A stretch of 64,000 nt of DNA from assembly GCF_000153205.1 (NCBI RefSeq), contig NZ_CH672427.1, positions 3,216,596 through 3,280,595 of the forward strand, in the 5' to 3' direction. Shown here one piece after another: positions 1 through 24,855 of the stretch; the stretch's first letter is position 1; the number at the start of each line of letters is the position of its first letter. This DNA is from Nitrococcus mobilis Nb-231. GTDB lineage: Bacteria; Pseudomonadota; Gammaproteobacteria; Nitrococcales; Nitrococcaceae. A model generated the notes under the pieces. It had not been told where the DNA came from. It searched no databases and worked only from the letters and a program-made list of their open reading frames with translations. The position numbers and the translations under genes are program-made.

Positions 1-2
1 CG

Positions 3-695
3 GGTCGCGACGATACCACGGGCCGATGGTATCGGACCGGTGACCGGGCCCGCTACTGGCCGGACGGCGTGTTGGAGTTTCTCGGTCGGATCGACGATCA
101 GGTCAAAATTCGCGGCCATCGTATCGAACTTGGAGAGATCGAAGCAGCGCTTCTGGAATGCCCCGGCGTTGACCATGCGGTCGCGCTCGTGCTGCGTGGG
201 CCGGCTTCAACGGCGCGACTGGTAGCTGCCGTGGTGGCGCCACCCGGGCACCCGGTCCCCGATGGCGACCTTCTGCATTCGCACCTGATCGGAATATTGC
301 CGCCGCCGATGGTTCCCGAACACATCGAGGTGATGGATGCCTTGCCGCTGACCGCCAATGGCAAGGTGGATCGTGCCGCGCTGGCGGAATGCTTCAAAAG
401 CCCCGCTTCGAAGGACGAGAGTCAATCCGGGCCGCCGCAGGGCGAGTGGGAACAGCGCGTCGCTGAGATCTGGGAAGCACTGCTAGAGGTGCCTTTTCCA
501 CAACGACAGCACAGTTTTTTCGAACTGGGGGGCGATAGCCTTTTGGCAACCCGTTTTACCGAAACCCTGTGCCGCCGCTATGGAGTGACTTTACCCCTTC
601 GTCACCTTTTTACCCAGCCTATGTTAGCGGATGTGGCGGTGGCCATCGAAGTCGAAGCGGCGCGCGCCGTGGATACAGAAGAAGGCGCCCTGTGA
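3..695 (+). CDS. NRPS, C-terminal part (PchE-like; A domain end and PCP), 5' partial
   Basis: This is the end of a large nonribosomal peptide synthetase whose start lies before the window. The frame is open from base 3. Visible in order are the A7/A8 region ([13 protein letters not shown], then [14 protein letters not shown]), the A10 motif [14 protein letters not shown] with its lysine, and a carrier domain [14 protein letters not shown] whose pantetheine serine codon is at 537-539. A8 runs into A10 in about 80 residues, so no methyltransferase or epimerase domain sits inside this A domain, unlike P. aeruginosa PchE or HMWP2. It is followed after 51 bp by the PchF-like gene. By position it should load salicylate and the first cysteine, but that is inferred from context because the specificity residues are off the window. 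Confidence 0.85.
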
Positions 696-6248: not shown

Positions 6249-8011
6249 ATCACACATCCAACCCGCCTTTGTACGAGTTGCGTCGCCCGGTGGCGGGGTT
6301 GATTCGCCTCGGTGTGATACTCGGAGGGGTGGGGGCATTGAGCTCGCTGCTTCCCTTTATCGCCATCGTGGAACTGGGGCGAGTGTTGATGGCTCCAGGT
6401 CCTATCGATACCGTCCGGGTGGGAATGATCGCGGCGCTGATCGGGCTGGCGCTTTTGTTGGGCTGGCTCTGCATGGGGTTGGCGCTCTGGGCTACCCATC
6501 TAGCCGATCATCGCATGCAGGCGTCACTGCGGCGCGAGCTGGTACGAGTACTCGGCCGCGTGCCTTTGGGCTGGTATTCCGACAAGACCTCCGGCGCCGT
6601 CCGTAAGGCGGTGCAAAACGACTTGGAGGATCTGCATCACTTGGTGGCGCACCATGACGTGGAGCGCGTCGCCGCCATTGTATTACCCGCGGGAGGACTG
6701 CTCTATTTGCTGTGGCTCGACTGGCGTCTGATGCTGCTGGCAGTGGTGACCCTGCCGGTTTACGCGGTGGCTTACGCTCGGATGATGCGCGGTTTTGGCG
6801 ACAAAATGACGCAACTCGACGCCAGCTTTTCCGAGGTCAGCGCCGCCATTGTCGAGTTCGTTAATGGTATCACCGTGGTCAAGGCTTTCGGTCAGTCCGG
6901 ACGGGCCTACGAGGGTTACCAGAACGCGGTTCGTAATTTCAGCGAACGCTATGCAGGTTGGGTCAGGCCCCTGTTGCGGCTTGAAGCGTTGTCTTCGCTG
7001 GCGCTGTCGGCGCCGGTGATCATGCTGTCGACCCTGGCCGGTGGGGCCTGGTTTCTTGCCAACGGCTGGGTGGGGCCTTTGGATGTGATGGCCGCGACCC
7101 TGGTTGGCATGGCGCTTCCTCAAACGCTACTGACGTTGAACCAGGGGCTGGTCGCGCAACGCAATGCCGAGGCCGCGGCAAAGCGAATCGCTTCGTTGCT
7201 CGCAGCGGAGCCGCTACCGGTGAGTTGTCATCCGCGCCGTCCTGTCGGCGCCACGGTGGAATTCGAACAAGTCTCGTTTCGTTACGCCGACGACCATGAG
7301 GTTCTTTCCAATATCTCGCTGAATTGCCGGCCCGGCACGGTGACCGCCCTGGTGGGCCGGTCCGGAGCCGGCAAATCCACTCTGGCCATGCTGGTGCCCC
7401 GGTTTCATGACGTCAGCGCTGGAACAGTGCGGGTGGGCGGTGTCGACGTTCGCGAGATTGCTCCCTCCGTGTTGTACGGAAAAGTGGGTTTCGTGCTGCA
7501 GAATGCGCAACTGGTGCGCGGTACGGTCCGCGACAACGTCTGTCTGGGGCGGCCCGGCGCCGATCAGGCGGCGGTGATCGAGGCGGCCCGTGCTGCTCGC
7601 ATCCATGATCGCATTCTGGCTTTGCCCCGAGGATACGACAGCGTGATTGGCGAGGACGCGGTGTTTTCCGGTGGTGAAACGCAGCGGGTATCGATTGCCC
7701 GTATGTTGCTCGCCGATACGCCGATTCTGATTCTGGACGAGGCTACGGCCCATGCCGATCCGGAATCCGAGGCGCACATTCAGGATGCGCTGTCCACTCT
7801 GGCGTTGGGGCGGACGGTTCTGGTGATTGCCCATCGCTTAGCTTCCATCGTTGCCGCGGATCAAATCGCCGTCATCGACGGCGGCCAGATTGTTGAGCAG
7901 GGCACCCATGATCGGCTGTTGGAAGCGGGCGGTTTGTACGCGCGCTTGTGGCGACTGCAGACGTTTGTGGAGTCGGAAGGGGGCGAGCGGGAAGAGGCGG
8001 CACGGGCATGA
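6245..8011 (+). CDS. ABC transporter, fused membrane and ATPase domains (PchH/YbtP type)
   Basis: 588-residue half transporter with an N-terminal six-helix exporter-fold membrane region (about 1-320) and a C-terminal ATPase. Walker A is GRSGAGKST (371-379), followed by the signature FSGGETQR and Walker B ILILDEATAHAD, so the ATPase looks intact. It starts with GTG inside the stop of the NRPS gene and ends in an ATGA overlap with a second half transporter, so the two probably form a heterodimer in the inner membrane. Tandem genes of this kind in pyochelin and yersiniabactin loci (PchH/PchI, YbtP/YbtQ) handle the siderophore or its iron complex. Direction of transport cannot be read from the sequence. 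PchH versus PchI identity is by position only. Confidence 0.9.
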   Translation: MNHTSNPPLYELRRPVAGLIRLGVILGGVGALSSLLPFIAIVELGRVLMAPGPIDTVRVGMIAALIGLALLLGWLCMGLALWATHLADHRMQASLRRELVRVLGRVPLGWYSDKTSGAVRKAVQNDLEDLHHLVAHHDVERVAAIVLPAGGLLYLLWLDWRLMLLAVVTLPVYAVAYARMMRGFGDKMTQLDASFSEVSAAIVEFVNGITVVKAFGQSGRAYEGYQNAVRNFSERYAGWVRPLLRLEALSSLALSAPVIMLSTLAGGAWFLANGWVGPLDVMAATLVGMALPQTLLTLNQGLVAQRNAEAAAKRIASLLAAEPLPVSCHPRRPVGATVEFEQVSFRYADDHEVLSNISLNCRPGTVTALVGRSGAGKSTLAMLVPRFHDVSAGTVRVGGVDVREIAPSVLYGKVGFVLQNAQLVRGTVRDNVCLGRPGADQAAVIEAARAARIHDRILALPRGYDSVIGEDAVFSGGETQRVSIARMLLADTPILILDEATAHADPESEAHIQDALSTLALGRTVLVIAHRLASIVAADQIAVIDGGQIVEQGTHDRLLEAGGLYARLWRLQTFVESEGGEREEAARA

Positions 8012-9750
8012 TAGGTGATCTTTCGAAAATACTGGGACCGGTGCATCGCCGGGATCTGTACCGCTATCTGAACTGGTTGATCGCCTACGCGGTACTCCAG
8101 GGCGTCGCCATCGCCTTTCTGGTGCCGGTGCTGGCGGCGATGATGCACGGTGATATGAAGCGTGCGGGCTATGGATTGCTGGGGTTGGCGCTGATGGTGG
8201 TGCTGGTGGCCGTCGCCCACTATCGCCAGGCAATGAAAGGCTTCGCGCTGGCGCTGGTGGTGCTGACCACGCTTCATGACCGCCTCGGGGCTAAGCTGGT
8301 CTCCCTACCGCTGGGGTGGTTTTCGTCGGAGCGTGTAGGCCGGCTGTCGCGTAGCGCTACCGGCGGGACCATGTTGGTTACTAATGTCTTCGCCCATCTG
8401 TTGACTCCAGTGGCGACCGGAATTCTCACCCCAGCCACCACAGCCGTCGCTCTATTGTATTTCGACTGGCGTCTTGGGCTGACTGTTTTATTCGCCGCCC
8501 CACTGATATTCCTGCTTCATAACTGGTCGTCGTCATGGATTGCCCGTACCGAGCTGCAGGTCGATGCCGCCGGTGTCGAGGCCAGTAACCGAGTGGTGGA
8601 ATTCGCTCGCCTGCAGCCAGTGTTGAGGGCTTTCGGTCGTACCACGGATGGCTACCTGCCATTGGACGAGGCCATTGAGGAGCAACGCCGTGCCGGCGGT
8701 GACCACCTCAGTGCTACTTTCCCCCGTCTTCTGGTGGCGGGGCTGGGTATACATCTCGCTTTTGCTGCCCTGTTGGCGGTCGGCGTGACCCTGGTGTTCG
8801 CCCACGCTCTCGACAACGTCGAACTCATCGCTCTTCTGGCTCTGTCCGCGCGGCTGGCCAGTCCGCTCGCAGAGGCGGCAGCGCGCAGCGGGCAACTGCG
8901 CATGGCGGCGAACGATTTGCGACGGCTCGCGGACATCTTCGATCAGGAACCGCTGCCGGAATCGGGTCATTCCATGCCGATGAGCGATCCGGGATCGGTG
9001 GCGTTCTCTGAGGTGGTGTTCGGATACCGGCCCGGGGAGAAGTTGATAAACGGTGTCTCGTTCCATGTGCCAGCGGGAACCATGACCGCCATCGTCGGAC
9101 CTTCCGGGTCCGGCAAAACCACGCTTACCAAACTGATCATGCGCTTTCACGACGTCGACAGCGGATCGGTGCGGATGGGTGGTAGTGATGTCCGCAGCTT
9201 GACCACCGGGGATCTGATGGCGCAGATCGCGCCAGTGATGCAGGACGTCTACCTGTTCAACGATACCCTCGAAGCAAACATCCGCATCGGCTCGCCGACG
9301 GCCAGCCAAGCTGAGGTTCGCGAAGCCGCCCGGCTTGCCGGTGTCGATGACATCGTGGAACGGTTGCCGTTCGGCTGGCGCTCATCGGTGGGCGAGGGTG
9401 GCAGCGCCTTGTCCGGCGGCGAGCGACAACGGATTTCCGTGGCGCGCGCCTTGTTGAAACGAGCCTCGATCGTGATTCTCGATGAAGCCACCGCCGCTCT
9501 CGACGCGGAGAACGAGCGCCATGTTCAAAACGCCATCCGTACCCTGAAGGCGCGTTCCACACTCATTGTGGTGGCGCACCAGCTGTCCACGATTCGTGCG
9601 GCGGATCAGATTCTTATGCTTGAGGACGGTGTTGTCGTCGCCGCCGGTACGCATCGGCAGTTACAGGCCAGTGATCCGCGCTATTGCGCGTTCTGGCAAG
9701 AACGCAATCGCGCCCAGGGATGGCGGCTGACGGGGGAAGCAGTGCCATGA
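8008..9750 (+). CDS. ABC transporter, fused membrane and ATPase domains (PchI/YbtQ type)
   Basis: 580-residue second half transporter. The ATG at 8008 overlaps the previous stop (ATGA) and is preferred over an in-frame start 60 bp upstream that would lie inside the previous gene. Membrane region about 1-310, then an ATPase with Walker A GPSGSGKTT, signature LSGGERQR and Walker B IVILDEATAALD, all intact. It is the probable partner of the preceding half transporter in an inner-membrane heterodimer for siderophore traffic. The next gene again starts by an ATGA overlap, so the expression is likely coupled. An unrelated lipid or peptide exporter with the same fold is less likely because both neighbours are siderophore genes. 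Confidence 0.9.
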   Translation: MIGDLSKILGPVHRRDLYRYLNWLIAYAVLQGVAIAFLVPVLAAMMHGDMKRAGYGLLGLALMVVLVAVAHYRQAMKGFALALVVLTTLHDRLGAKLVSLPLGWFSSERVGRLSRSATGGTMLVTNVFAHLLTPVATGILTPATTAVALLYFDWRLGLTVLFAAPLIFLLHNWSSSWIARTELQVDAAGVEASNRVVEFARLQPVLRAFGRTTDGYLPLDEAIEEQRRAGGDHLSATFPRLLVAGLGIHLAFAALLAVGVTLVFAHALDNVELIALLALSARLASPLAEAAARSGQLRMAANDLRRLADIFDQEPLPESGHSMPMSDPGSVAFSEVVFGYRPGEKLINGVSFHVPAGTMTAIVGPSGSGKTTLTKLIMRFHDVDSGSVRMGGSDVRSLTTGDLMAQIAPVMQDVYLFNDTLEANIRIGSPTASQAEVREAARLAGVDDIVERLPFGWRSSVGEGGSALSGGERQRISVARALLKRASIVILDEATAALDAENERHVQNAIRTLKARSTLIVVAHQLSTIRAADQILMLEDGVVVAAGTHRQLQASDPRYCAFWQERNRAQGWRLTGEAVP

Positions 9751-10856
9751 TCTCAGTGTTGGGAGGTTACGGTGAGGTCGGAACGGCGGCGGTCAGGGCC
9801 TTGCTGGCGCTAGGGCTCGGTCCGTTGCGGATCGGTGGTCGTGACGGCGCCGCTGCCAGGGCCCTGGTAAGAACACTGGATGCCCCATCGCTGGAAGCCG
9901 CGGAAGCGGATTTCATGGACCGTTCGTCTCTGGCGCGGTTCGTATCCGGTTGTCGTGTGCTTCTCAACTGCGCGGGGCCTTCCCATCTGATCGGTGCGGG
10001 GCCGGCGTTGGTCGCTTTGGAAGAGGGCGCCGATTACGTGGATGTGGCCGGCGATGACGGTCTGTATGCGCTTCTGGACGACGCCGACTACCGTGAGCAG
10101 GGGTGCCGGGCACTGCTCTCTGCCGGTTTGCAGCCCGGTCTTACCGGACTGCTGCCGCGCTGGCTGGCTGCTACTGGTTTCGACAAAGTAAGTCGGCTGG
10201 TCAGCTATTTCGGTTTGCTCGATCACTTTACCGCGGTGGCCGCCGACGATTACCTGCAAAGTGTCGAGGACGGTTTTGGACGGCCCTTGGCCGCATGGCG
10301 GCAAGGATGCCGTCCCGGCGTGCTGGTCCGCAACAGTGACGCGGGGTTGCCGTTCTTTCCCGGCCGGGTGACGGCGTTGCCCTACCTGAATCGGGAAGCG
10401 GAACGGATTGCCTCGTCCCTGGAACTTGAACAGGGGGACTGGTACACGGTTGTTGCCGGACGCCATACCCTGGCGGCTTTAGATTGGGTCCACGGCATGT
10501 CTCGTGAGGGAGCCGCCTCCCTGCTGCAACGGTCTAGCCGCCTGGACATGGCCGGTCGAACACCCTTCGTAACCCTACTGGTGCAACTTGGCGGCCGCGT
10601 GGTCAGTGGAGAGCAGCGGACTCGTTCACTGGCATTTCGGGGGCACCGCAATAGCGAATTGACCGGCGCCTTTGCGGCGGTGGTGACCCGCGCGGCGTTG
10701 GAGCAGAACATCCTCCCCGGCCGTCAGTTCGCGGCGATGTCAGTGGAGCCGGTATCTGCCGTCGAGTCCTTGCTCGCCACCGGCATGGTGAGCGGTCTCA
10801 CCGTCCTGGACGGCCCTCTGGAGATGTTCACCGAAGCCGAGGAGGGCGCATTGTGA
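9747..10856 (+). CDS. Saccharopine dehydrogenase-like NAD(P)-binding reductase (possible PchK-type)
   Basis: 369 residues. The N-terminus MISVLGGYGEVGTAAV is a Rossmann dinucleotide-binding loop (GGYGEVG), followed by VLLNCAGPSHLIGAG and DYVDVAGDDGLY, which are typical of the saccharopine dehydrogenase-like family. The start ATG overlaps the transporter stop. Enantio-pyochelin clusters carry a reductase called PchK that does the thiazoline reduction in place of PchG and shows only distant similarity to it; this gene sits in a fitting place, just after pchF and the transporters. That assignment is from memory of the pathway and not proved here. The same cluster also has a PchG-like reductase at 14472, so the two may act on different rings or one may have another role. 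Confidence 0.7.
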   Translation: MISVLGGYGEVGTAAVRALLALGLGPLRIGGRDGAAARALVRTLDAPSLEAAEADFMDRSSLARFVSGCRVLLNCAGPSHLIGAGPALVALEEGADYVDVAGDDGLYALLDDADYREQGCRALLSAGLQPGLTGLLPRWLAATGFDKVSRLVSYFGLLDHFTAVAADDYLQSVEDGFGRPLAAWRQGCRPGVLVRNSDAGLPFFPGRVTALPYLNREAERIASSLELEQGDWYTVVAGRHTLAALDWVHGMSREGAASLLQRSSRLDMAGRTPFVTLLVQLGGRVVSGEQRTRSLAFRGHRNSELTGAFAAVVTRAALEQNILPGRQFAAMSVEPVSAVESLLATGMVSGLTVLDGPLEMFTEAEEGAL

Positions 10857-12020: not shown

Positions 12021-14246
12021 ATGGCGACCATGAGCTTTCACCAAATAATTTTCGACGGACTGGAACGAATGCGCGAGCGCACCGTGTTGTATGGCGATGC
12101 TCAGCAATGGAACGGAGCCCGGATGCTGGAGACCGTGGAGCAGTACCGGGCGGCGCTGTCCTGGCGAGGTCTCGGCATCGGCGACAGCTTGATCTGGGAT
12201 GGTGAGGAAGACGGTCAGGTACTGGCATTGCGGTTGGCGGCCATGGCCCGCGGTTGCACGTTTGTTTCCGCACCCGGCGGCGCCGGTGACGCGGTGCCGG
12301 TTTCCTCGTCCATTCTCCAGGACTGCGTCGACGACAGGGGGCTGGAGACCCAACGGGACGAGCTCTGGTGCTACCAGGTACGAAAGGGCGCCTTTGCCTG
12401 GTCTGAAGACACTTTCAGCGCCACCTTGTCGGAGCTGCGAGCCACCTTGGAGGAAGTGCCGCGGCGCATTGCCGTACTTGCCCCTCTGTCCGGTTTTGGC
12501 GGCGACCTCTGCCTGGCAGCGTGGAGTTTGTCCGCACCGGTTCATTACTCCGGCGCCAAGCAACCCGCCGGCGTTTTCGCCTTTCTCGAACGTGTAGCCG
12601 CCGATCGCCTGATTGTGTCGGATCATCGACTGCGAGAGTTGCTGGCGCATCCGGCGGCGGTACTGGCCCGTTGTGCGCCGCTGCGGACACTGCTGATCGA
12701 AAGCAGCCCTGGGGCAGAGGAAAACGATCTTGAGTCGTTGGTTGCCTCTGGTCCCCTCCACTGCGAAAAGACCGTCGTTGTCGTTCCCACCGACCAGGGA
12801 TTCCTGCCCACAGAAGAAGCGTTTTTGCGACTGCAACAGGAAGCCCAAAAAGTAGAGGAGGCAGCCGCTGCCCACCCGCTGGTGGGCGAGGTCCGGGTGT
12901 TGCCGGATGGCGTCGGGAAATGGACGTTGTTGGCCGTTCCCGCCGAGCAATGTCCGGTGACCGAGGAAGAGGGGGGGGAGGATTTCTGGAATGGCTATGT
13001 CCAGACCCGTTTGGCCGCGCATTTCACCGACTTCGACTGGCAGGCCGGCGTTTCGGCGACACAGCGTTTGGCCCGCATCGCTTTGCTGTCGATGGTCAAT
13101 GCGCTAAGCCGGCGGGGTGTTTTTACCGAACGTGAAACCGGTTATTCCCAACAACAGATATTGGCCTGCGCCGCCGAACGGCACCGGCCTTTAGTGTCCC
13201 GATGGTTGGCGGTGTTGGAGCAGCAGGGGTTGTTGCGTCGCCATGGCGACGGGCTGAGGGTTTCGGACCGGCTTGATGACTATGCTGACGCGGCGCTGGA
13301 GCAGGCCTGGGACGAAATGGAAAGCGTTTGGCGTGAGGTGGCGGGTTCCACCGGCACCATTGAGTACGCCCGCGAGAACAGCGCCTGTCTTGCCGAATTG
13401 CTGTCCGGACAACGCAATGCCGTCGAGGTTCTGTTTCCGGCGGGGCGGATGGATCTCGCCGAAGCCCTCTATCGAGAAAGCCCGGCGGCGCGTTACCAGC
13501 ATCAGGCGGTCGCGGTCTTGTTGACGGAGATCGTTGCCGCCCACGAGCAGGGTGACCCGGTGCGGATTCTGGAAGTCGGAGCCGGCACTGGCGCCACTTC
13601 CGAAGTGGTGCTGCCGGCTTTGGCGGGCGAGCCGGTGAGTTATCTCTACACCGATTTTTCCCGGTTCTTTCTGGATCAGGCTGTTCGGCGCCTGGGGAAC
13701 GATCCGCGGGTGACATTCGCCATTTATGACATCGACAGCTCCCCTGAAGCCCAGGGTTTCTCGCCCAACGATTTTGACGTGGTTATCGGCGGAGGGGTAC
13801 TCAACGCGGCCCGTGACACGGATGCCTCGGTGCTCTGGCTGCAACAGTTACTGAGACCGGGAGGCTGGCTGGTGATCACCGAGCCGACCATGGAGGAATT
13901 CTGGGTGATGGCGTCCCAGGCCTTCATGCTGGCTGATGCCAGCGACGAACGGGCGCAATCAGGCCGCACTTTCCTCAGCCTGGAACAGTGGCATCGGGTC
14001 CTGGCCCAAGCCGGCCTGCGGTGCGTGCTGGATTTGCCTCCGTCGGGGCACCCGCTGGCGACTTTGGGGCACCGGGTTTTCGCCGCGCGTGCCAAGATCG
14101 ACCGCGCACCCCTGCGCCGCACCGATCTGGAACGCTACTGTCGGCAGTGTCTGGGTGATGTCATTTCCCGGGTGGAAATTCTTGATCGGCTGCCGGAGTT
14201 GCGAACCGGCGAACCGGCGGCTGCGGAGTACGGCCACTGCATATAG
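12021..14246 (+). CDS. Degenerate adenylation scaffold with embedded SAM methyltransferase
   Basis: 741 residues from ATG 12021 (ATG 12030 is an alternative). The first 300 residues follow the layout of an adenylation domain (TVLYGDAQQWNG, then a GIGDSLIWDGEEDGQVLALR stretch), but no TSGSTG-type A3, no TE-type A5 and no RTGD A7 can be found, so amino-acid activation is very unlikely. An A8-like segment leads into an MT domain like that of PchF (ILEVGAGTGATSEVVL, SYLYTDFSRFFL, LLRPGGWLVITEPTM). The end resembles the A9/A10 region (VEILDRLPELRTGEPA) but lacks the A10 lysine, and no carrier domain follows. It appears to be an A-MT segment cut out of an NRPS and kept as a trans-acting methyltransferase or MT-like epimerase. 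The frame is intact. Confidence 0.8.
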   Translation: MATMSFHQIIFDGLERMRERTVLYGDAQQWNGARMLETVEQYRAALSWRGLGIGDSLIWDGEEDGQVLALRLAAMARGCTFVSAPGGAGDAVPVSSSILQDCVDDRGLETQRDELWCYQVRKGAFAWSEDTFSATLSELRATLEEVPRRIAVLAPLSGFGGDLCLAAWSLSAPVHYSGAKQPAGVFAFLERVAADRLIVSDHRLRELLAHPAAVLARCAPLRTLLIESSPGAEENDLESLVASGPLHCEKTVVVVPTDQGFLPTEEAFLRLQQEAQKVEEAAAAHPLVGEVRVLPDGVGKWTLLAVPAEQCPVTEEEGGEDFWNGYVQTRLAAHFTDFDWQAGVSATQRLARIALLSMVNALSRRGVFTERETGYSQQQILACAAERHRPLVSRWLAVLEQQGLLRRHGDGLRVSDRLDDYADAALEQAWDEMESVWREVAGSTGTIEYARENSACLAELLSGQRNAVEVLFPAGRMDLAEALYRESPAARYQHQAVAVLLTEIVAAHEQGDPVRILEVGAGTGATSEVVLPALAGEPVSYLYTDFSRFFLDQAVRRLGNDPRVTFAIYDIDSSPEAQGFSPNDFDVVIGGGVLNAARDTDASVLWLQQLLRPGGWLVITEPTMEEFWVMASQAFMLADASDERAQSGRTFLSLEQWHRVLAQAGLRCVLDLPPSGHPLATLGHRVFAARAKIDRAPLRRTDLERYCRQCLGDVISRVEILDRLPELRTGEPAAAEYGHCI

Positions 14247-14293
14247 TGACCACGGTCAGCCTGGCCGGCTACTCAACCCTTTGGGGGGATCCT

Positions 14294-14526
14294 ATGACAT
14301 CCACACTGGATCAGCCGCAGGCCTATCCCTTCAACCGGTTCGACGGTCTGGAGCTTGCGCCACAGTATGCGTGGGCGCTGCGTCAGACCGGACTGACTCG
14401 GATCACCTTGCCGTTCGATTGCGTGTTTTGCTCGAGCGCCTGCCGGATATCCATCTTTGCGGAGAAATTGAATGGAAGACCAAGACCTTCTTTCGCGGGC
14501 CGCGGCGCATGCTGGTGGCATGGTGA
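14294..14526 (+). pseudogene. Cytochrome P450 remnant with central deletion
   Basis: The ATG at 14294 has a good ribosome site (GGGGGG at 14283-14288) and encodes MTSTLDQPQAYPFNRFDGLE followed by an LxLPF-type segment, which matches the N-terminus of bacterial class I P450s (CYP105/107-like). After about 41 codons the frame leaves the family. Another frame then reads LRVLLERLPDIHL and RGPRRMLVAW up to a stop at 14524-14526, which matches the extreme C-terminus of the same family. The heme-binding, I-helix and ExxR regions, some 300 residues, are missing. The junction lies near 14405-14420. This is the scar of a deleted tailoring gene in the operon. The 3' end of the scar overlaps the start of the PchG-like gene. 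Confidence 0.75.
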
Positions 14527-15632
14527 GCGAGGTCGGCGATCGCCGACGTCGAGTGGTGGTCGCGGGCACCGCATTTGGGCGTATCTATATCCAGGCGGTG
14601 CTTTCCCACCCTGACCGATTCGCATTGGCGGGAATTCTGGCTAAGGGCGGAGACTATTCCCGGGGCTGTGCTGAGCGTTACGGTGTGCCGTTGTTCACCG
14701 ATCCGGAACGAATTCCCGATGACGTGGACATCGTCTGCGTGGTGATCCGCTCCGGGGCCATTGGCGGTGCCGGTGCAGAGCTGGCGAAGGCGTTGCTGGA
14801 ACGAGGATATCACGTGCTCCAGGAACACCCGGTGCACAGTTCGGAAATCGTCGAATGCTTACGCGCCGCCCGGGCCGGTAACGCAGCCTATGCAGTGAAC
14901 ACGCTTTATCCCGATATCAAACCGGTGCGGCAATTGCTTGCCGCCGCTGCCTATCTTCGGCAACAACAGCCGTTGGCTTTCATTGATGCGGCGTGCAACA
15001 GTCAAGTGGCCTATCCGCTCATCGATATCCTCGGTCGGGCGGCGGGCTCACTGCGACCGTGGTCGTTCCAGGCGCCGCCGCTGGGGTCCGACAGCGAGGC
15101 GACGCCATTCCGCTCCCTGACGGCCACCATTGGCGGTGTTCCGGTGACGCTGCGAATTCAGAACCAGGTTCATCCCGACGATCCGGACAATTATTCCTAT
15201 CTCATGCACCGCATCACCCTGGGCTGGGAAGCGGGCATTCTGAGTCTTGCCGATACCCACGGACCGGTGTTTTGGAACCCCCGGTTGCATGCGCCCCGTG
15301 ACGACACCGGTCGGTTGCTGATGGAAGGCCCTGGCACGGAACGACTGGCAGTACCCAGCACCGTGATTCTGGGCGACGAAGAGCCCCGCGATTATCACCG
15401 AGTGTTTGCGGAAACCTGGCCGGATGCGGTTGCGGTGGCCCTGGCACGCTTGTGCCGCGATATCGATGCTCCTGCGGGCAGGGCGCGAAGTGGGCAGTGG
15501 GCTCTGGGTGTGTCCCAGGCCTGGCGGGATATGACAGCGGCGGTGGGTATGCCCGAGTTGATTCGTCCTGCGGAGCCGCGGGCCGTTTGCTTGGACGCCT
15601 TACGTGCCGCTGCCGCGGCCGGGGAATGGTGA
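14472..15632 (+). CDS. pchG: Thiazolinyl imide reductase (PchG/Irp3/YbtU family)
   Basis: 386 residues. It reduces one thiazoline ring to thiazolidine on the NRPS-bound intermediate, using NADPH. The N-terminal Rossmann part reads RVVVAGTAFGRIYIQAV, followed by DIVCVVIRSGAIGGAG, VLQEHPVHSSEIVECLRAA and AYAVNTLYPDIKPVRQLL, all characteristic of the PchG/YbtU family. ATG 14472 follows CGGAGAAATTGA, a good ribosome site, and lies inside the P450 scar, so the deletion did not remove the gene's translation signal. VAW-stop of the P450 remnant ends 54 bp inside this frame. The next gene starts two bases after the stop. The presence of this reductase and of the saccharopine-dehydrogenase-like gene in one cluster is unusual. 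Confidence 0.92.
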   Translation: MEDQDLLSRAAAHAGGMVSEVGDRRRRVVVAGTAFGRIYIQAVLSHPDRFALAGILAKGGDYSRGCAERYGVPLFTDPERIPDDVDIVCVVIRSGAIGGAGAELAKALLERGYHVLQEHPVHSSEIVECLRAARAGNAAYAVNTLYPDIKPVRQLLAAAAYLRQQQPLAFIDAACNSQVAYPLIDILGRAAGSLRPWSFQAPPLGSDSEATPFRSLTATIGGVPVTLRIQNQVHPDDPDNYSYLMHRITLGWEAGILSLADTHGPVFWNPRLHAPRDDTGRLLMEGPGTERLAVPSTVILGDEEPRDYHRVFAETWPDAVAVALARLCRDIDAPAGRARSGQWALGVSQAWRDMTAAVGMPELIRPAEPRAVCLDALRAAAAAGEW

Positions 15633-15633
15633 T

Positions 15634-16362
15634 ATGGGATTATCGTGCAGTCACGTTTTGCTTTGGGTTCGTGATCTTCATCAGGCGGTGGCGGATTTTC
15701 GCGCGCTGGGATTCCACGTGGACTACGCCACCGATCGAAAAAAAGCACAGCACGCCCACATCTGGTTTTGCCGAGGGCCGGTGATCGAGTTGCTGACCAC
15801 CCCGAGCAACGCTCGTTATTTCAAGTGGCCGATTGATCTTATGGCCGGTCGCGGCGCCGGAGAGCGCATGGTGCGTTGGGGCTGCGAGGGAGAAGGATTC
15901 TGCGATGTGGCTGTGGTTGTCGAGGGCAATCCTAAAAAAGTGTCGGCGGAACTGAAGCGTTCCGGAATTGCCATAGGACGTTTTGTTCCCTGGCGGCGCA
16001 CTCGTCCGGATGGTCAGCGAGTCCACTTCCGCTTCGCCTACCCACGCCAAAGCCGGCTCCCTTTCGTGGTGACCCCCTATGAACCGCCTCAGCATCCCGC
16101 CAGGGTTCGTCACGCCAATGGTGCCACCGCTTTGCGGCATGTGCGGATGGGTGCGCGGGTGGAAGACAGTGACCGGCTGCATCATCTGGTGGGGGCGGAT
16201 CCGGTTTTCTCCGTGACGTCTGCCGAGCAAACCGGCGTGTTGTGGATCGAATTGGAGGGCCTTTCGCTGCCGCTGCCTGAGACGTTGACGCACGGGGCGG
16301 AGATTCGCCCGGCCGGCGCGCGCGCCGACGTGGCGCGAAGCTCACCCGCATTTGCAAAGTAG
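15634..16362 (+). CDS. VOC superfamily (glyoxalase-like) protein
   Basis: 242 residues from ATG 15634, one base after the PchG stop, so probably translated by coupling. The N-terminus CSHVLLWVRDLHQAVADFRA and the later HIWFCRGPVIELL and LPFVVTPYEPPQHPARVRH have the beta-alpha-beta-beta-beta layout and metal-ligand His/Glu spacing of the VOC fold, closest to glyoxalase-like single-polypeptide members. No such gene belongs to the standard pyochelin or yersiniabactin sets. It may bind the siderophore or a metal, protect the host, or tailor the product; none of these can be decided here. It is in an operon between the imide reductase and the salicyl-AMP ligase, which ties it to this pathway by position. 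Confidence 0.72.
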   Translation: MGLSCSHVLLWVRDLHQAVADFRALGFHVDYATDRKKAQHAHIWFCRGPVIELLTTPSNARYFKWPIDLMAGRGAGERMVRWGCEGEGFCDVAVVVEGNPKKVSAELKRSGIAIGRFVPWRRTRPDGQRVHFRFAYPRQSRLPFVVTPYEPPQHPARVRHANGATALRHVRMGARVEDSDRLHHLVGADPVFSVTSAEQTGVLWIELEGLSLPLPETLTHGAEIRPAGARADVARSSPAFAK

Positions 16363-16371
16363 GAGGCAAAG

Positions 16372-17979
16372 ATGTTGGAAGGTTGTGTGGCCTGGCCGGT
16401 GGAACTCGCGGAACATTATCGGGAAAAAGGATATTGGCGGGGTATCGATCTGGGAGAGTGGTGGCGCGGCTGTGCCGACGAATTTGCCGTCGGTACTGCG
16501 CTGATCGAAGGCAGTCGGCAATGGTCCTATCGGGAACTGGATGCCTGGGTAGAGAGGTTGGAGGGGGGCATTCTGGAGGTTGGATTGGAACCGGGACAGA
16601 GGGTTCTGCTGCAACTGCCCAACAAGGCGGAATTTGTTGCTTTGTGTCTGGCTTTTTTCAGGATTGGTGTAATTCCGGTACTGGCCTTGCCGGCGCATCG
16701 GGAGAAGGAAATTCGTCACTTGGCGGAAGCTTCACAGGCGGTTGCCTATGTGATCCCCGACACGCATCTCGGATTCGATTATCGGCCGATGGCCAGAACG
16801 GTGCTGGACAATGTCGAGACTCTGCGTTCGGTCTTCGTGGTTGGAGAACCGGGAAGTTTTGCGCCGTTCTCGGCTCTGGAAGGGGAGCCGCGCCCAGTGC
16901 CCGCGCCTGCCGCCGAGGAAGTTGCCGTAATGTTATTGTCCGGCGGCACCACGGGATTGCCCAAGCTGATTCCGCGTACACACAACGACTATCTCTATAA
17001 CGCACGCACGAGCGCCGAACGGGCCGGTTTCACTGCAGACACCCGTTATTTGGCAGTGTTGCCCGTGGCGCATAATTTTCCGTTGGCGTGTCCGGGGCTG
17101 CTCGGCACTTTTGATGCGGGAGGGGCGGTGGTGCTTTGCCCTGACCCCAGCCCCGATACGGCTTTTGCACTGATCGAGAAAGAGGGGATTACGGTTGCCG
17201 CGCTGATTCCCACGCTCGTACGAGTCTGGCTGGAATTCGCCCCGCTTACCGAAGCCGATTTGAGCAGCCTGACCTGCCTGCAGGTGGGAGGGGCACGCCT
17301 GAAGGTGGAGGTTGCGGCACAGGTGGGCGAGATATTGGGGTGCGGTCTGCAGCAGGTTTACGGCATGGCCGAGGGGCTGTTATGCATGACTGCGCCGGGG
17401 GACCCGGAATCATTGGTGCTCAACACTCAGGGATGCCCTATTTCTCCTGGCGACGAGGTTCGAGTGGTGGACGACCAGGGGCGTGATTTGCCGGACGGAG
17501 AAATCGGTGAGTTGCTGGTACGTGGGCCTTACACTCTGCGCGGCTACTACCGCGCCGAGGAACATAATCGCCGTTCCTTCACCGAGGACGGCTTTTATCG
17601 CAGTGGTGATCGAGTGCGCCGGCTGGCCGGCGGCTATCTGGTGGTGGAGGGGCGTGATAAGGACATCATCAACCGGGGAGGCGAAAAAGTACCGGTGGAG
17701 GATGTGGAGAACCATTTGTTGTCGCATCCCAGTGTCGCCGACGTAGTTTTGATCGGGATGCCGCATAACACTCTGGGCGAATGCAACTGCGCGTGCGTTA
17801 TCGCCAGAGGCGAAGCACCCCGGCTCTCCGAGTTGAATGCTCACCTTTCCGCATCGGGCCTGGCGGCGTACAAACTGCTGGATCGGTTGGAAATCATCGA
17901 CCGTTTTCCGCTTACCCGATTGGGCAAGGTCAATCGCCGTCAACTGGCGGAGCAGTTTCACGCCAGGGTGGCCTTATGA
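16372..17979 (+). CDS. pchD: Salicyl-AMP ligase (PchD/YbtE, EntE family)
   Basis: 535 residues. Activates salicylate with ATP and loads it onto the aryl carrier domain of the first NRPS. Family signs: MLLSGGTTGLPKLIPRTHND (P-loop and the conserved RTHNDY), VLPVAHNFPLACPG with the asparagine typical of aryl-acid ligases, VYGMAEGLLCMT, YRSGDRV, RDKDIINRGGEKV and the C-terminal lysine in FPLTRLGKVNRRQLA. Length is normal for stand-alone aryl-AMP ligases. ATG 16372 is preceded by a strong GTAGGAGG site 9 bp downstream of the VOC gene stop. It overlaps the pchC-like start by ATGA. A 2,3-dihydroxybenzoate ligase is excluded mainly by the neighbouring pchB/pchA genes, which make salicylate. Confidence 0.93.
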   Translation: MLEGCVAWPVELAEHYREKGYWRGIDLGEWWRGCADEFAVGTALIEGSRQWSYRELDAWVERLEGGILEVGLEPGQRVLLQLPNKAEFVALCLAFFRIGVIPVLALPAHREKEIRHLAEASQAVAYVIPDTHLGFDYRPMARTVLDNVETLRSVFVVGEPGSFAPFSALEGEPRPVPAPAAEEVAVMLLSGGTTGLPKLIPRTHNDYLYNARTSAERAGFTADTRYLAVLPVAHNFPLACPGLLGTFDAGGAVVLCPDPSPDTAFALIEKEGITVAALIPTLVRVWLEFAPLTEADLSSLTCLQVGGARLKVEVAAQVGEILGCGLQQVYGMAEGLLCMTAPGDPESLVLNTQGCPISPGDEVRVVDDQGRDLPDGEIGELLVRGPYTLRGYYRAEEHNRRSFTEDGFYRSGDRVRRLAGGYLVVEGRDKDIINRGGEKVPVEDVENHLLSHPSVADVVLIGMPHNTLGECNCACVIARGEAPRLSELNAHLSASGLAAYKLLDRLEIIDRFPLTRLGKVNRRQLAEQFHARVAL

Positions 17980-18737
17980 GAGCGGTTCAGCCATCCAGTA
18001 GTGGCATCTGCGCGCTTAGGGTCTCTCCGAAGCCGCGCGCCCGGCTGGTCTGCCTGCCTCATGCCGGAGGCAGCGCCAGCTATTACCGTGACTGGAGCAA
18101 AGCGTTGCCTGGCCATATCGATCTGTTGGCGGTGCAGTACCCCGGGCGCGCGGAGCGGTATTCCGAACCCTTTGCGCGCTCGCTGGAGTCGTTGGCGGAT
18201 GAAACCGCTGCGGCCCTGGTGCAGTTCGCCGACGTGCCGCTGGTGTTGTTCGGGCACAGCCTCGGCGCCGCGCTGGCTTACGAAGTCGCGCTACGACTCG
18301 AGCAACGGGCCCTACCTCTGAAACGCTTGATCGTCTCCGCCCATCCCGCCCCCCACCGGCAGCGTGAAAGTTCTTTGCACCAGCAGACCGATGACGATCT
18401 GCTTGAGGATATAAGACGCCTTTCCGGCGGCAGTACTCCTCTGGACGAACCCGTGATACGAGAGGTGTTCATGCCCATGTTGCGCAATGACTATCGACTC
18501 ATCGAAAGCTATGCACGCGATATTCCCGAGCGGGTCGGGGCTCCAGTAGATGTGTGCTTTCCCCTCGACGACGACGAAATCAGTGAAAGCGAAGTGCGTG
18601 CCTGGCAGGACGTGACGCCCTGGATGCTAGGGATTCTGCTGTTCCGGGGTGGGCACTTTTATCTGCAAGAGCAATATTGGGAGCTCGTTGAGCGACTGTT
18701 GCAACGTCTGGATTCCACCAACGAGCCGAGGAGGTAA
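17976..18737 (+). CDS. pchC: Type II thioesterase (PchC/YbtT)
   Basis: 253 residues from ATG 17976, overlapping the pchD stop. The protein is an alpha/beta-hydrolase with LVCLPHAGGSASYYRDW near the N-terminus, QYPGRAERY, the nucleophile elbow FGHSLGAALAYE and the C-terminal histidine in RGGHFYLQEQ, all hallmarks of editing thioesterases that remove wrongly loaded groups from carrier domains. In contrast to the TE at the end of the PchF-like protein, the nucleophile here is the usual serine. It sits between the aryl-AMP ligase and the salicylate genes as in pchDCBA operons. A longer upstream in-frame start lies inside pchD and is not preferred. Confidence 0.92.
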   Translation: MRAVQPSSSGICALRVSPKPRARLVCLPHAGGSASYYRDWSKALPGHIDLLAVQYPGRAERYSEPFARSLESLADETAAALVQFADVPLVLFGHSLGAALAYEVALRLEQRALPLKRLIVSAHPAPHRQRESSLHQQTDDDLLEDIRRLSGGSTPLDEPVIREVFMPMLRNDYRLIESYARDIPERVGAPVDVCFPLDDDEISESEVRAWQDVTPWMLGILLFRGGHFYLQEQYWELVERLLQRLDSTNEPRR

Positions 18738-18742
18738 ATGGA

Positions 18743-19048
18743 ATGTTGGCGCCTGATGATTGTGCCAGCCTCACGGATATTCGCCAGGCCATCGACGGGT
18801 TGGATCGGGAGGTGCTGACGATTCTGGGCAAACGGATGCAGTATGTTCTGGCCGCGTCGCGATTCAAATCGGACGCAAAAAGCATTCCCGCGCCGGAGCG
18901 GGTGGCGTCGATGTTGGTGGACCGTCGCCGGTGGGCGGAGGAAAACGGGCTCGACGGTGACTTCGCGGAATCTCTTTTTCAGCAGATCATCTCTTGGTAT
19001 ATAGCCCGGCAGGTGGACTACTGGCGCGCACAGCGGGGGCTGCAATGA
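18743..19048 (+). CDS. pchB: Isochorismate pyruvate-lyase (PchB, chorismate mutase fold)
   Basis: 101 residues. It converts isochorismate to salicylate and pyruvate. The sequence has the AroQ-type helix bundle with SLTDIRQAIDGLDREVLTIL and GKRMQYVLAASRFK; the lysine loop that marks PchB is visible in FKSDAKSIPAPERV. Length matches P. aeruginosa PchB (101 residues). ATG 18743 follows GAGGAGG at 18727-18733. The gene ends in an ATGA overlap with the isochorismate synthase, consistent with the two working in sequence from chorismate. A true chorismate mutase is less likely given the neighbours. Confidence 0.93.
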   Translation: MLAPDDCASLTDIRQAIDGLDREVLTILGKRMQYVLAASRFKSDAKSIPAPERVASMLVDRRRWAEENGLDGDFAESLFQQIISWYIARQVDYWRAQRGLQ

Positions 19049-20421
19049 ACATACTGACCCGGATGTGGGATTTTGAATCCGTGTTCACGGCGGCCCGGGC
19101 CCAGGCCAGGCAAGCCTGCCAGCCGGTTCTGGCGGTGCTGACTTTTCTCTGGACGGGCCGGGATCCGCTGGAGCTATACGAACAGTTGGAGTCCTCCTCC
19201 GTCCCGTGCTTGTATTGGGAAACCCGGGACCCGGAATTGACGTTATTGGGTATTGGCAGAACATTGGAATTGTGTCCCGATCCCGGCTCCGGATTTGAGC
19301 GGGTGGAACAGCGATGGCGGGAGATGACCGTCGCCGCCCTGGTTGAGGGGTCTGCGGCACCTCGAGCCATCGGCGGGTTCCGGTTCGACGCCGAGGCCGT
19401 TCCGGAATGGCCCTGGCGGCAGTTTCCATCGGCGCGTTTGATAGTGCCCCGTTTATTATTGGAGCGCACTCCGCAAGGAAGCCTGCTGGTCTGTCAGAAG
19501 CTGATTGGGGTGGACGATGATCCTATTGCCGAGGGACATCGGTACCGCCGTGATATCGAAGCCTTACTGGGCCAGGGGGCGAGTTCACGACGGCAGGCGA
19601 AGCCGTCGCTGGTTCAGAATCAGGGAGTATCCGCGGGGCAATGGCAATCCAAGGCCGAGGCACTGATAGAGGCGATTCGAAAGGGCAGGCTGCAGAAGGT
19701 TGTGCTCGCAAGGCATCTGCACCAAACCTATTCGGAGCCCTTGTCCCCGGCGGCCATACTTCGCCGCCTTCGGAGATCAGACGCCCGCTCCCATCTGTTT
19801 GCGGTACGGCACGGCGATCTCTGTTTTCTCGGTGCAACTCCCGAGCGCCTGGTTTCCGTGCGGGAGGGGAGGGTGAGAACACATGCTCTGGCAGGAACCA
19901 TACAGCGGGGCGACGACCCCGAAACCGACCAAAGGTTGGGGCAGCAACTTCTGAGTTCCGCCAAGGACCGTCATGAACATGCACTGGTGGTGCGCGCTAT
20001 CCGCGATGCTCTAGCGCCGCTCGTCGAGGGACTGACCGTGTCTCCGAAACCAGTATTGCATCGTCTGCCTGTGATGCAGCATCTGAGCACCACGATCGAA
20101 GCCCGGATCGCCGGAGTCAACGGCATCCTGAAGTTGGTGGAAGTTTTGCAGCCCACTCCGGCCGTGGCAGGTCATCCAAAGGGCGAGGCACTGTCCTGCA
20201 TTCGCCTGCATGAAGGCTTTGACCGCGGCTGGTACGCGGGACCGCTGGGCTGGATTGACGGCAACGGAAACGGAGATTTTGTAGTGGCGCTGCGTTCGGC
20301 GTTGATAAAGGGGCGCGATTGTCACCTGTTCGCCGGTTGCGGGCTGGTGGCCGATTCCGTTCCCGAGTATGAGTATCAGGAAACCTGCCTCAAACTATCG
20401 AGTATGCAGGAGGCGGTATGA
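19045..20421 (+). CDS. pchA: Isochorismate synthase (PchA)
   Basis: 458 residues. It isomerises chorismate to isochorismate. The C-terminal two thirds carry the chorismate-binding fold: LQKVVLARH, FLGATPERLV, RTHALAGTI, KDRHEHALVV, LSTTIEAR, PTPAVAGHPKGEA, GWYAGPLGWID and CHLFAGCGLV, including the acidic metal ligands. The N-terminal 150 residues are less conserved, as in PchA. ATG 19045 overlaps pchB. It could be a bifunctional salicylate synthase like Irp9, but the separate pchB makes the two-enzyme route more likely. Its stop overlaps a further ATG whose frame closes after 13 codons (see the next entry). Confidence 0.92.
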   Translation: MNILTRMWDFESVFTAARAQARQACQPVLAVLTFLWTGRDPLELYEQLESSSVPCLYWETRDPELTLLGIGRTLELCPDPGSGFERVEQRWREMTVAALVEGSAAPRAIGGFRFDAEAVPEWPWRQFPSARLIVPRLLLERTPQGSLLVCQKLIGVDDDPIAEGHRYRRDIEALLGQGASSRRQAKPSLVQNQGVSAGQWQSKAEALIEAIRKGRLQKVVLARHLHQTYSEPLSPAAILRRLRRSDARSHLFAVRHGDLCFLGATPERLVSVREGRVRTHALAGTIQRGDDPETDQRLGQQLLSSAKDRHEHALVVRAIRDALAPLVEGLTVSPKPVLHRLPVMQHLSTTIEARIAGVNGILKLVEVLQPTPAVAGHPKGEALSCIRLHEGFDRGWYAGPLGWIDGNGNGDFVVALRSALIKGRDCHLFAGCGLVADSVPEYEYQETCLKLSSMQEAV

Positions 20422-20681: not shown

Positions 20682-21398
20682 TTGCTGGATGAGACCGACG
20701 AATTGACAGCGTGTGATAAGGGAACGGACTTCACGGCGGTCTGTAGAGCGCTGGTTCCCGCCGGTATGGCTGTTGCTGGCGGGCCTATCTTGGCGCTATC
20801 GCATGACCACAGGGGTCTTTCTCCGACGTTCTCAAGCAAGCGTCGTGCCGAGTATTGGTCTGGTCGGTATTATGCGCTGCAGGCACTTTGTGATCTCGGT
20901 GTGATTGTTAATAGTCTGCCAATTGGAGGAAATCGAGCGCCAGTGTGGCCCGACGGTATCGTCGGCTCAATATCGCACACGGACAGTCTATGCGTTTCGG
21001 TAGTCGCTGCGGAAGACAGGTTTCACGCAGTCGGAATTGATCTCGAACAAAATAGCCGCGTTACTCCTGAGCTGTTTAGCATGCTCTTCACCCAGCGCGA
21101 ACTGGCAGTTCTCGATCGTTTGGCTTTGGAAAAGCGATTCAATTTTATCCCCACGCTAGCCTTTAGCGCCAAGGAGGCGTTCTACAAATTCTGTTCACCA
21201 GAAAAGTACTTCGATTTCTTAGACGTGGAAATCGAATTTAACTCTCACATACCTATATTTCGGGTGCGCCTTGTTAACCCGAAAAACGTCCCGGTAACAG
21301 GCGAAATCTTCTACGGCCGCTGGGGGCGGTTTCGCGATCACGTTCTCACCGTAATTTGCTGTTCGGCGAACGCTACTTACGTTAGCAAGCCTCTGTGA
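20682..21398 (+). CDS. 4'-phosphopantetheinyl transferase (EntD/Sfp superfamily)
   Basis: 238 residues. It would prime NRPS carrier domains with phosphopantetheine from CoA. Signs: the GSISHTD motif, the metal-binding VGIDLEQ, and FSAKEAFYKF, in correct order and spacing for the EntD branch. The only available start in the open frame is TTG 20682 (ATG and GTG are absent back to the stop at 20610), so the N-terminus may be slightly short. Base composition is visibly more AT-rich than the siderophore genes before it, and there is no overlap with them; the 260-bp gap holds the truncated pchA-coupled frame. It could serve the adjacent NRPSs or be an older genomic PPTase. The frame is intact. Confidence 0.85.
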   Translation: MLDETDELTACDKGTDFTAVCRALVPAGMAVAGGPILALSHDHRGLSPTFSSKRRAEYWSGRYYALQALCDLGVIVNSLPIGGNRAPVWPDGIVGSISHTDSLCVSVVAAEDRFHAVGIDLEQNSRVTPELFSMLFTQRELAVLDRLALEKRFNFIPTLAFSAKEAFYKFCSPEKYFDFLDVEIEFNSHIPIFRVRLVNPKNVPVTGEIFYGRWGRFRDHVLTVICCSANATYVSKPL

Positions 21399-22483: not shown

Positions 22484-23060
22484 CTTAGTACTACAAGTTT
22501 AATCTGCGTGGTACAAACCTGAGGAGGCTGTCATGCAAGCAAGAGTTCGGGAATGGCATGGAGCCTTGGGGGCGCCCCATGAACGGATCGTCCCCCGCCT
22601 TCGGCGGGTTGAGCCGCGCAAACAGGTTCTGGGCTATCTGCGCGGACTGCTCAGTCCGGTGCTCGGAAGAATGATTGGCACCTGACCGAATATCTAGGGG
22701 GAAGACTGTCCCGACGGTGTGCAACGCCTGCTCAACGCGGCGCACTGGGATGCCGAGGCGGTGCGTGAGGATTTGCACCGATACGTTGTCGAGCAGTTGG
22801 GCGATCCGCAAGCCGTGCTGATCGTTGACGAGACGGGCTTTCTGAAGAAGAGCACGCACTCGGCCGGGGTCAAGTGTCAGTACAGCGGCACGGCGGGCCG
22901 GGTCGAGAATTGCCAGGTGGGTGTATTTTTTGTGTTACGCGAGCCGACACGGTGCGGCCTGGGCGTACTGGGCGTACGTTGCACTGAAGCACAGCACCGC
23001 CGACGCGCGCCGGTCGAGCGCCCGATTTGGGAAACAACCACCCTGGGTAGTTCGACGTGC
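22484..23060 (+). mobile_element. IS701-family element remnant
   Basis: ATG 22533, after GAGGAGG, starts a transposase N-terminus (VREWHGALGAPHERIVP, VLGYLRGLLSP) that stops at 22683. A second frame continues with [16 protein letters not shown] and [12 protein letters not shown] (about 22720-22870), then [17 protein letters not shown], all typical of IS701-family DDE transposases; further frame changes follow. The catalytic domain is incomplete. The sequence CTTAGTACTACA at 22484-22495 ahead of it may be the element's end, because the same 12 bases open the palindrome at 24060. The element is dead. Confidence 0.65.
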
Positions 23061-23121
23061 TGCAATCTCCGGCCTACAATCAAATTGTCTACCCCCATCG
23101 ACGCCAAGGAGACAACCAACC

Positions 23122-24689: not shown

Positions 24690-24855
24690 TTCGAGTGCAA
24701 TTCTTCACTTTGATGCACGCAGGCCGTTCATCGGCAAGGTGTTGCGCGTCAAAATGCTGGAGCAGGAATTCGTGAACGCATCCCGAGATGGGCGCCTCTA
24801 TCTTGTGGAGGCCGTTGAAATAGAAACGCCAGCGTCATGCCACTTCGATTTATAA
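24690..24855 (+). other. Coding-like + strand remnant overlapping the dabA 3' end
   Basis: A + strand frame reads DARRPFIGKVLRVKMLEQEF and LYLVEAVEIET before TAA at 24853-24855. It has protein-like composition but no start codon with a ribosome site, and its left part is broken. It overlaps the last 19 codons of dabA on the other strand. I do not recognise the family. It may be the tail of another broken gene at the island junction. Confidence 0.25.

Follow-up and report, generated by a model that had tools for sequence, protein, structure and literature searches.

A putative trans N-methyltransferase set in a decayed adenylation domain of a coelibactin/sorangibactin-like cluster in Nitrococcus mobilis

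A gene at 12021-14246 (+) of a 64,000-nucleotide stretch of Nitrococcus mobilis Nb-231 (contig NZ_CH672427.1, positions 3,216,596 to 3,280,595 of the forward strand; hereafter the window) encodes a 741-amino-acid (aa) protein in which, as sequence comparisons and a predicted structure confirm, a methyltransferase (MT) domain, MT2, is inserted at the A8/A9 point of a decayed, presumably noncatalytic adenylation (A) domain without a carrier domain. The protein occupies the MchG/SrbG position of a predicted coelibactin/sorangibactin-like nonribosomal peptide synthetase (NRPS) cluster, and we consider it probable that it acts in trans as an S-adenosylmethionine (SAM)-dependent N-methyltransferase whose substrate is the reduced ring carried by module 2.

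The 741-codon frame runs open from the ATG at 12021, as the initial annotation of this gene had stated, within an open reading frame (ORF) that begins earlier, at GTG 11898. A Pfam scan of the protein recognizes methyltransferase domains only, the widest at residues 495-669, and returns no PP-binding (carrier) domain; the SAM loop, LEVGAGTGATS, is intact. The missing carrier domain and the unbroken GAGTGA loop had both been read from the letters before. Aligned with the cluster's own three A domains, the protein has A3 (YTSGSTGEPKG) replaced, the A5-A7 stretch deleted and A8 degraded, and an alignment of homologues shows that the A10 lysine is absent, so that every motif listed as lost at the outset (A3, A5, A7 and the A10 lysine) is indeed gone. 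Since the A core is shortened too, it is a decayed fragment more than a point-mutated domain. From residue 274 onward the protein matches the A-MT of module 3; fold matches, alignment and the A8/A9 insertion point bear out the A-MT-A9/A10 order first proposed (Table 1). The losses are shared: A3 and the A10 lysine are missing in all eight dead-A proteins aligned (from the window, genome G002, Alcanivorax sp. 24, Sorangium cellulosum, Magnetospirillum molischianum, Magnetospirillum fulvum, G446 and G578; drawn from the loci of a pattern scan, below, plus two further genomes), and the A5-A7 deletion is seen in the three that were aligned with real A domains.

The N-terminal part, residues 1-347, has no Pfam AMP-binding match, and its identity as a dead ANL domain is carried by other evidence. 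All seven matches in a PDB sequence search (up to E=10) are named ANL-type, the best at E=0.0015, and the Sorangium homologue matches AMP-binding (7.5e-5) and AMP-binding_C (9.4e-4), both under the Pfam curated cut-offs. An AlphaFold2 model, computed from an alignment of six orthologues with no catalytic A domain among them (mean predicted local distance difference test score 75.7, predicted TM-score 0.51, and domain placement therefore unsure), gives residues 2-273 the ANL N-domain fold (6sq8_D, Z 20.4 over 249 residues at 3.2 Å; 8pyx_B, Z 20.8 over 242 residues at 3.3 Å), while residues 317-693 match the CurJ methyltransferase (Z 33.1, 366 residues, 3.2 Å), followed by DszA (Z 30.0) and CalH (7dmb; Z 24.0). 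The suggested structure prediction thus yields an ANL N-domain fold (Z ~20) and a C-terminal methyltransferase fold, and the possibility that the first ~300 residues belong to a nonadenylation family does not hold: the Pfam matches of this kind, to Apicomplexa microprotein (0.0025-0.0035) and BAT (0.071), lie under their cut-offs and contradict the fold and PDB matches.

What reaction MT2 catalyzes is best approached through its active site. C-methyltransferases have a His-Glu pair, and PchF is an N-methyltransferase. MT2 retains the Glu (Glu621) and has Asn595 at the catalytic-His position, where alignments place His in the CurJ, DisA/DszA and AprA MT2 structures. Asn stands there in 28/28 MT2-type domains, free-standing or reductase-fused, and in all eight dead-A homologues; His occupies it in 9/9 rows of MT1, the stand-alone methyltransferase encoded next to MT2, in 17/17 embedded epimerase (E)-type rows and in the HMWP1-like row. 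The 26 MTs embedded in module 3 are mixed (Asn 11, Glu 12, Ser 1, His 2), the Burkholderia PchF having Asn. These counts come from 81 aligned MT-like domains, which we also placed in a quick maximum-likelihood tree without G002, G446 and G578, MT segments under 200 aa (including the partial E-type segments of L017, L018, L065, L067 and L068) and the duplicate locus L059; the program warned of long branches (PchE E, Klebsiella E, PchF, HMWP1-like) and skewed composition, and the names PchE, PchF and HMWP1-like were given to Burkholderia and Shinella rows by homology. MT2 and 24 module-3 MTs, PchF included (52 rows), fall on one side of a branch with a Shimodaira-Hasegawa-like approximate likelihood ratio (SH-aLRT) of 96; MT1 forms one group (100), as do the E-type rows (90), and the window's MT2 lies within nested groups of 2, 5 and 9 MT2 rows (100, 96 and 99). 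Tree placement and the Asn suggest that MT2 is a PchF-type N-methyltransferase domain.

Two other activities have to be weighed against this one. The initial annotation had seen in the protein a PchE-type MT/epimerase moved out of its module. Part of this reading stands: an MT of embedded type has a polypeptide of its own, which it shares with a dead A domain. The PchE identity is not supported. The adjoining PchE-like NRPS1 does lack an embedded domain, as had been noted, with no methyltransferase-like domain found by Pfam over its full 2190 aa in the window's own genome, and MT2 is free-standing and without a carrier domain, as a displaced module-1/2 epimerase (or bifunctional MT/E) would be. 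Yet a PchE-type embedded epimerase has a catalytic His in its MT-like fold, reported as essential in PchE E (H1204, PMC8807600), where MT2 has Asn595; its SAM loop is intact; it groups with PchF-type MTs (SH-aLRT 96) and not with the E rows; it occurs also in clusters that have an embedded E; and MT1 is the better match for the missing activity. We regard a relocated epimerase as highly unlikely. Little separates from it in probability, at a shade lower still, a trans C-methyltransferase acting on the thiazoline alpha-carbon, the C-methylation performed by the yersiniabactin HMWP1 module. The closest fold matches, CurJ and DszA, are C-methyltransferases, but their His is Asn in every MT2-type domain, the HMWP1-like row stands apart from MT2 in the tree, and sorangibactin is described with N-methyl-thiazolidines (PMC10127202).

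Several points tell against N-methylation as we read it. MT2 alone is unsupported as a group (SH-aLRT 48). The mixed residues of the module-3 MTs mean that, among them, the catalytic-His position does not report activity cleanly. Rows were sorted into groups by architecture, best BLAST group and motif once the motif table had been inspected; of the 17 E-type rows, five (Bacillota, Aerophobetes) owe their assignment to their place in the upstream synthetase and a poor SAM loop, which makes the His count partly circular for those rows. Asn as a mark of N-methylation leans on PchF, its activity taken from general knowledge, and on correlation. The choice of ring, which we infer by elimination, points to module 2, whereas the mupirochelin authors predict other targets for MchF and MchG, an oxazoline N and a thiazolidine (PMC10080011).

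The product chemistry described for sorangibactin is consistent with a trans N-methyltransferase: the molecule has two N-methyl-thiazolidines for a single MT embedded in SrbD, SrbF and SrbG were proposed as trans methyltransferases, and deletion of SrbE/F/G abolished production (PMC10127202). We posit that NRPS1 module 2 would build a carrier-bound thiazoline, which the thiazolinyl imine reductase (14472-15632) would reduce to a thiazolidine; MT2 would then methylate the ring nitrogen in trans on the module-2 carrier protein, and module 3 would methylate in cis through its own embedded MT, giving tandem N-methyl-thiazolidines as known from sorangibactin. Deletion of srbI leads to a shunt product, C16H13N3O4S2 (PMC10127202, section 2.3), which by atom count leaves no carbon for an N-methyl.

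If MT2 supplies the methyl, another protein could supply the epimerization. MT1 (10853-12010) has an intact SAM loop and a catalytic-type His. In all eight genomes with MT1 clusters that were compared, the match to window module 2 contains no insertion as large as an E domain; the window and G002 bring these MT1 genomes to ten, the G002 NRPS1 being counted by its equal 2190-aa length alone. Conversely, no MT1-type domain was found in the loci of 15 relatives with an embedded E-type segment of at least 200 aa, within flanks of up to 10 kb per locus (18 kb for the Klebsiella plasmid); in six loci (L037, L048, L049, L053, L055 and L064, the last by a gap only) that segment falls within the final module of the homologous NRPS1. 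Because the SrbD MT and MT2 would cover the two N-methyls of sorangibactin, MT1 would be left without a methyl to place, and this, together with its His and its lack of co-occurrence with an embedded E, makes it a candidate trans epimerase and a better fit than MT2 for the missing E domain. Its intact SAM loop, which a pure epimerase does not need, counts against this assignment. A bolder reading, which we offer only tentatively and think on balance unlikely, is that both module-2 tailoring domains are off-line, the N-methyltransferase surviving as MT2, its dead A shell turned into an adapter for carrier docking, and the epimerase as MT1 with its SAM motif; the all-S stereochemistry of sorangibactin, predicted from the absence of an epimerase domain, would then be wrong. 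The MT1 of S. cellulosum So0157-2 (L043:8744-11047) has an Irp3-like domain (31%) at its N terminus, possibly a second dead-scaffold case; the 31% BLAST match to Irp3 rules out a SrbE-like fusion, and a separate imine reductase and a saccharopine-dehydrogenase gene accompany this protein in the cluster.

The A shell itself would be what remains of the A-MT module that gave rise to MT2, kept as a scaffold flanking the MT, perhaps as a docking surface, and nearly lost in some lineages. By a simple counting method, the ratio of nonsynonymous to synonymous substitution rates (dN/dS) between the window and G002 is 0.25 in the degenerate A core, A* (bootstrap 0.14-0.49), 0.25 in the MT, 0.59 in the sub-domain piece (0.21-3.0) and 0.21 in the tail (upper bound 1.09); against Alcanivorax it is 0.25 (0.16-0.39), 0.145 (0.10-0.20), 0.31 and 0.54 (0.21-1.23), respectively. 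For comparison, the working module-3 A domain and MT give 0.21 and 0.19 against G002. The A* core is under purifying selection, and it has invariant residues of its own shared by the eight aligned homologues, from gamma- and alphaproteobacteria to Sorangium. Both facts, and the packing of the PchE E domain on its A sub-domain (865 square angstroms), with which it rotates (PMC8807600), would suit a shell that works as an active adapter, a carrier-docking or oligomerization platform lending specificity to the trans enzyme. That so much of it can be dispensed with elsewhere makes this role improbable: some 80 BLAST-detectable A residues are left in Magnetospirillum, a trace of ~70 in Amycolatopsis regifaucium, where MT1, A* and MT2 lie in one polypeptide (L046:9503-11854), and none at E 1e-4 in Amycolatopsis decaplanina and two Lentzea, and a reductase replaces the shell in the reductase-fused proteins examined. 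Two further points speak against any function of the shell: by comparison with Alcanivorax, A* has diverged more quickly than the MT, and neither the sub-domain piece (0.59) nor the tail (0.54) is clearly constrained, so that the shell may be mere debris. At the other extreme, we give next to no credence to the gene being a decaying pseudogene; its A domain is decayed and the adjoining P450 gene of this genome is broken, but the frame is open, A* and the MT show the same low dN/dS against G002, the SAM and active-site motifs are intact and full-length homologues exist.

Homologues in other genomes, located in syntenic clusters, also rule out that the gene is a singular oddity. A species-level genome collection scanned with two peptide patterns yielded 30 loci, and the limitation to two patterns makes this prevalence a lower bound. 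The gene is rare: 2/398 genomes of a phylum sample match at E 1e-60, its own included, and 2/46 of the Alcanivorax family, Alcanivorax sp. 24 included; 13 of 369 genomes of the class match at E 1e-20, the N-terminal part being covered in its own genome only. In a 54-genome set A* finds the window's own copy, G002 and a weak 64-residue match in G038 (E 4.7e-4). The N-terminal part has no match in a plasmid collection, and one record of a phage collection matches, at 25% and in the MT part only. The Sorangium and G578 proteins keep a recognizable A10 stretch from which the lysine is gone. In another subclade MT2 is fused to a thiazolinyl imine reductase, by Pfam in four cases (Alkalilimnicola, a Kitasatospora, Streptomyces chattanoogensis and Paenibacillus popilliae) and by BLAST in four more (Klebsiella, Citrobacter and two more actinomycetes). 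The Klebsiella pneumoniae plasmid pINF237_01-VP and Citrobacter braakii (L037, L064) hold coelibactin-like clusters with this fusion and a Cys-type thioesterase (TE), and the synthetase genes of Alkalilimnicola ehrlichii AK92 (L018:391-6696, L017:8013-14223) are split across several frames, perhaps by assembly errors. The series from a largely kept dead A domain to none may document the stages by which a tailoring domain leaves its module to work in trans as a protein of its own, a process relevant to engineering attempts at moving such domains.

Known systems share parts of this design. The MT embedded in PchF of pyochelin, a single A-MT-PCP-TE module with a working A domain (PCP, peptidyl carrier protein), likewise lies between A8 and A9, has the Asn motif and falls on the same side of the tree, the row compared being a long-branched Burkholderia arboris PchF named by homology; the 741-aa protein differs in its dead A domain and in having no cyclization (Cy) domain, PCP or TE. 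The interrupted A domain 5wmm, ranked 15th by Foldseek, resembles it in its A-MT-A layout; A domains interrupted by a methylation domain in this way are presumably active and carry an MT of another subfamily. CalH, from a fungal pathway and without an A shell, is a free-standing relative of assembly-line MTs and in this respect similar. The PchE module 7emy, ranked 4th, has the same insertion point and an A-X-A layout (PMC8807600), but its E domain requires the His (PMC8807600) that is Asn here, and the Burkholderia PchE-E counterpart lacks the GxGxG SAM loop that is intact in MT2. Closest are MchG (mupirochelin, Pseudomonas sp. NCIMB 10586) and SrbG (sorangibactin, Sorangiineae MSr11367), in their place beside mchF/srbF, as SAM methyltransferases and in cluster content (PMC10080011, PMC10127202). 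The arrangement, first described as nonstandard for pyochelin and yersiniabactin systems, is therefore not unique but occupies the mchG/srbG position of a known three-module siderophore class, and the cluster is not a deviant pyochelin/yersiniabactin cluster. The passages on MchG and SrbG in these sources call them SAM methyltransferases only (PMC10080011, PMC10127202); by analogy with the S. cellulosum So0157-2 and Alcanivorax homologues, both may themselves carry the A shell. A literature search for an A shell on such methyltransferases and for interrupted or degenerate A domains, its scope ending short of subscription papers, supplements and reviews (e.g. PMC8949500, PMC11355689), found no description. 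Counterparts of the gene are known already, but the dead A shell, and the way in which MT1 and MT2 would share the tailoring work, look undescribed. The sorangibactin authors state that a full assignment of tailoring enzymes to the structure was not achieved (PMC10127202); taken together, the anatomy of the domains, the division between Asn and His, the fusions of MT2 with a reductase and the mutual exclusion of MT1 and embedded E would translate into concrete assignments, with SrbG as the N-methyltransferase of ring 2 and SrbF as a trans epimerase.

Table 1. Features of the 741-aa gene and of the surrounding cluster (window coordinates; CP, carrier protein)
Feature	Coordinates	Strand	Basis
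A*, degenerate adenylation (ANL) core without A3, A5-A7, residues 1-280	12021..12860	+	PDB sequence matches, fold, motif alignment
Degenerate A8/first part of A sub-domain, residues 281-345	12861..13055	+	Module-3 A-MT match, alignment
MT2, SAM methyltransferase domain, putative PchF (N-methyltransferase) type, SAM loop intact	13056..14096	+	Pfam, alignment, tree, fold
Degenerate A9/A10 tail, A10 lysine lost	14097..14246	+	Homologue alignments
NRPS1 3' end, CP-Cy-A-CP-Cy-A-CP, no embedded MT/E	1..695	+	Pfam; 2190 aa, continues upstream (L016:7719-14291)
NRPS2, TubC_N docking-Cy-A[MT]-PCP-TE	747..6248	+	Pfam
ABC exporter, mchC/D-like	6245..8011	+	Pfam ABC_tran, ABC_membrane
Second ABC exporter, mchC/D-like	7948..9750	+	Translation, homologues in syntenic loci
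Saccharopine-dehydrogenase-like reductase (mchE/srbE), start uncertain	9684..10856	+	Pfam Sacchrp_dh_NADP 2.5e-6
MT1 (mchF/srbF position), standalone methyltransferase, 385 aa	10853..12010	+	Pfam, motif table, tree
Cytochrome P450 gene remnant (mchH/srbH position)	14285..14523	+	Alignment with relatives
Thiazolinyl imine reductase, Irp3/PchG type (mchI/srbI)	14472..15632	+	TIGR01761 333.8 bits, cut-off 188.8
VOC/glyoxalase-like protein (mchJ/srbJ)	15604..16362	+	Pfam scan
Aryl-AMP ligase (mchK)	16372..17979	+	Best NCBIfam DHB_AMP_lig 623 bits, under cut-off 723.55
Type II thioesterase (mchL), probably starting downstream of 17781	17781..18737	+	Pfam scan
101-aa chorismate-mutase-like ORF, mchM (isochorismate-pyruvate lyase) position	18743..19048	+	Position, presumed similarity
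Isochorismate synthase (mchN), start uncertain	18994..20421	+	NF005459 549.9 bits, cut-off 475
Phosphopantetheinyl transferase	20682..21398	+	All models under their cut-offs

Gene content identifies the cluster as coelibactin/sorangibactin-like, with predicted functions for salicylate, three cyclizing modules, two reductases, two trans methyltransferases and a Cys-type TE; the chorismate-mutase similarity of the 101-aa ORF is one that we presume. Gene order follows mchA-N (PMC10080011), the 741-aa gene coming after the saccharopine-dehydrogenase and first MT genes and ahead of the P450 remnant, imine reductase and VOC genes, and fits, the broken P450 excepted, the srb genes as described: SrbC with seven domains, SrbD with five, SrbE (saccharopine dehydrogenase), SrbF/G (methyltransferases), SrbH (P450), SrbI (imine reductase) and SrbJ (VOC) (PMC10127202). 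The synthetases fit the seven-domain plus five-domain layout with a Cys TE, NRPS2 having an additional TubC_N docking domain; its TE nucleophile motif carries Cys (LIGYCLGG), as does the sorangibactin TE (PMC10127202). The P450 is where the window departs from the sorangibactin/coelibactin-like layout, to which an intact P450 (SrbH/CYP105N1) belongs: both gene ends are kept (71% and 60% identity to the Alcanivorax P450) and 962 bp are missing relative to G002. Since the remnant shows the former presence of the gene, it points to a variant product and not to another cluster type, and with the P450 broken this product may retain an oxazoline/thiazoline, as happens when srbH is deleted. G002 has a nearly full-length P450, but BLAST matches it in two pieces that are not in the same frame.

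Farther downstream, an ORF at 22921-23448 ends in C-terminal tandem His-rich repeats, possibly metal-binding, and a two-gene block at 24798-28795 resembles, from its translations, what we take to be a DAB-type inorganic carbon transporter (DUF2309 plus a proton-pumping subunit).

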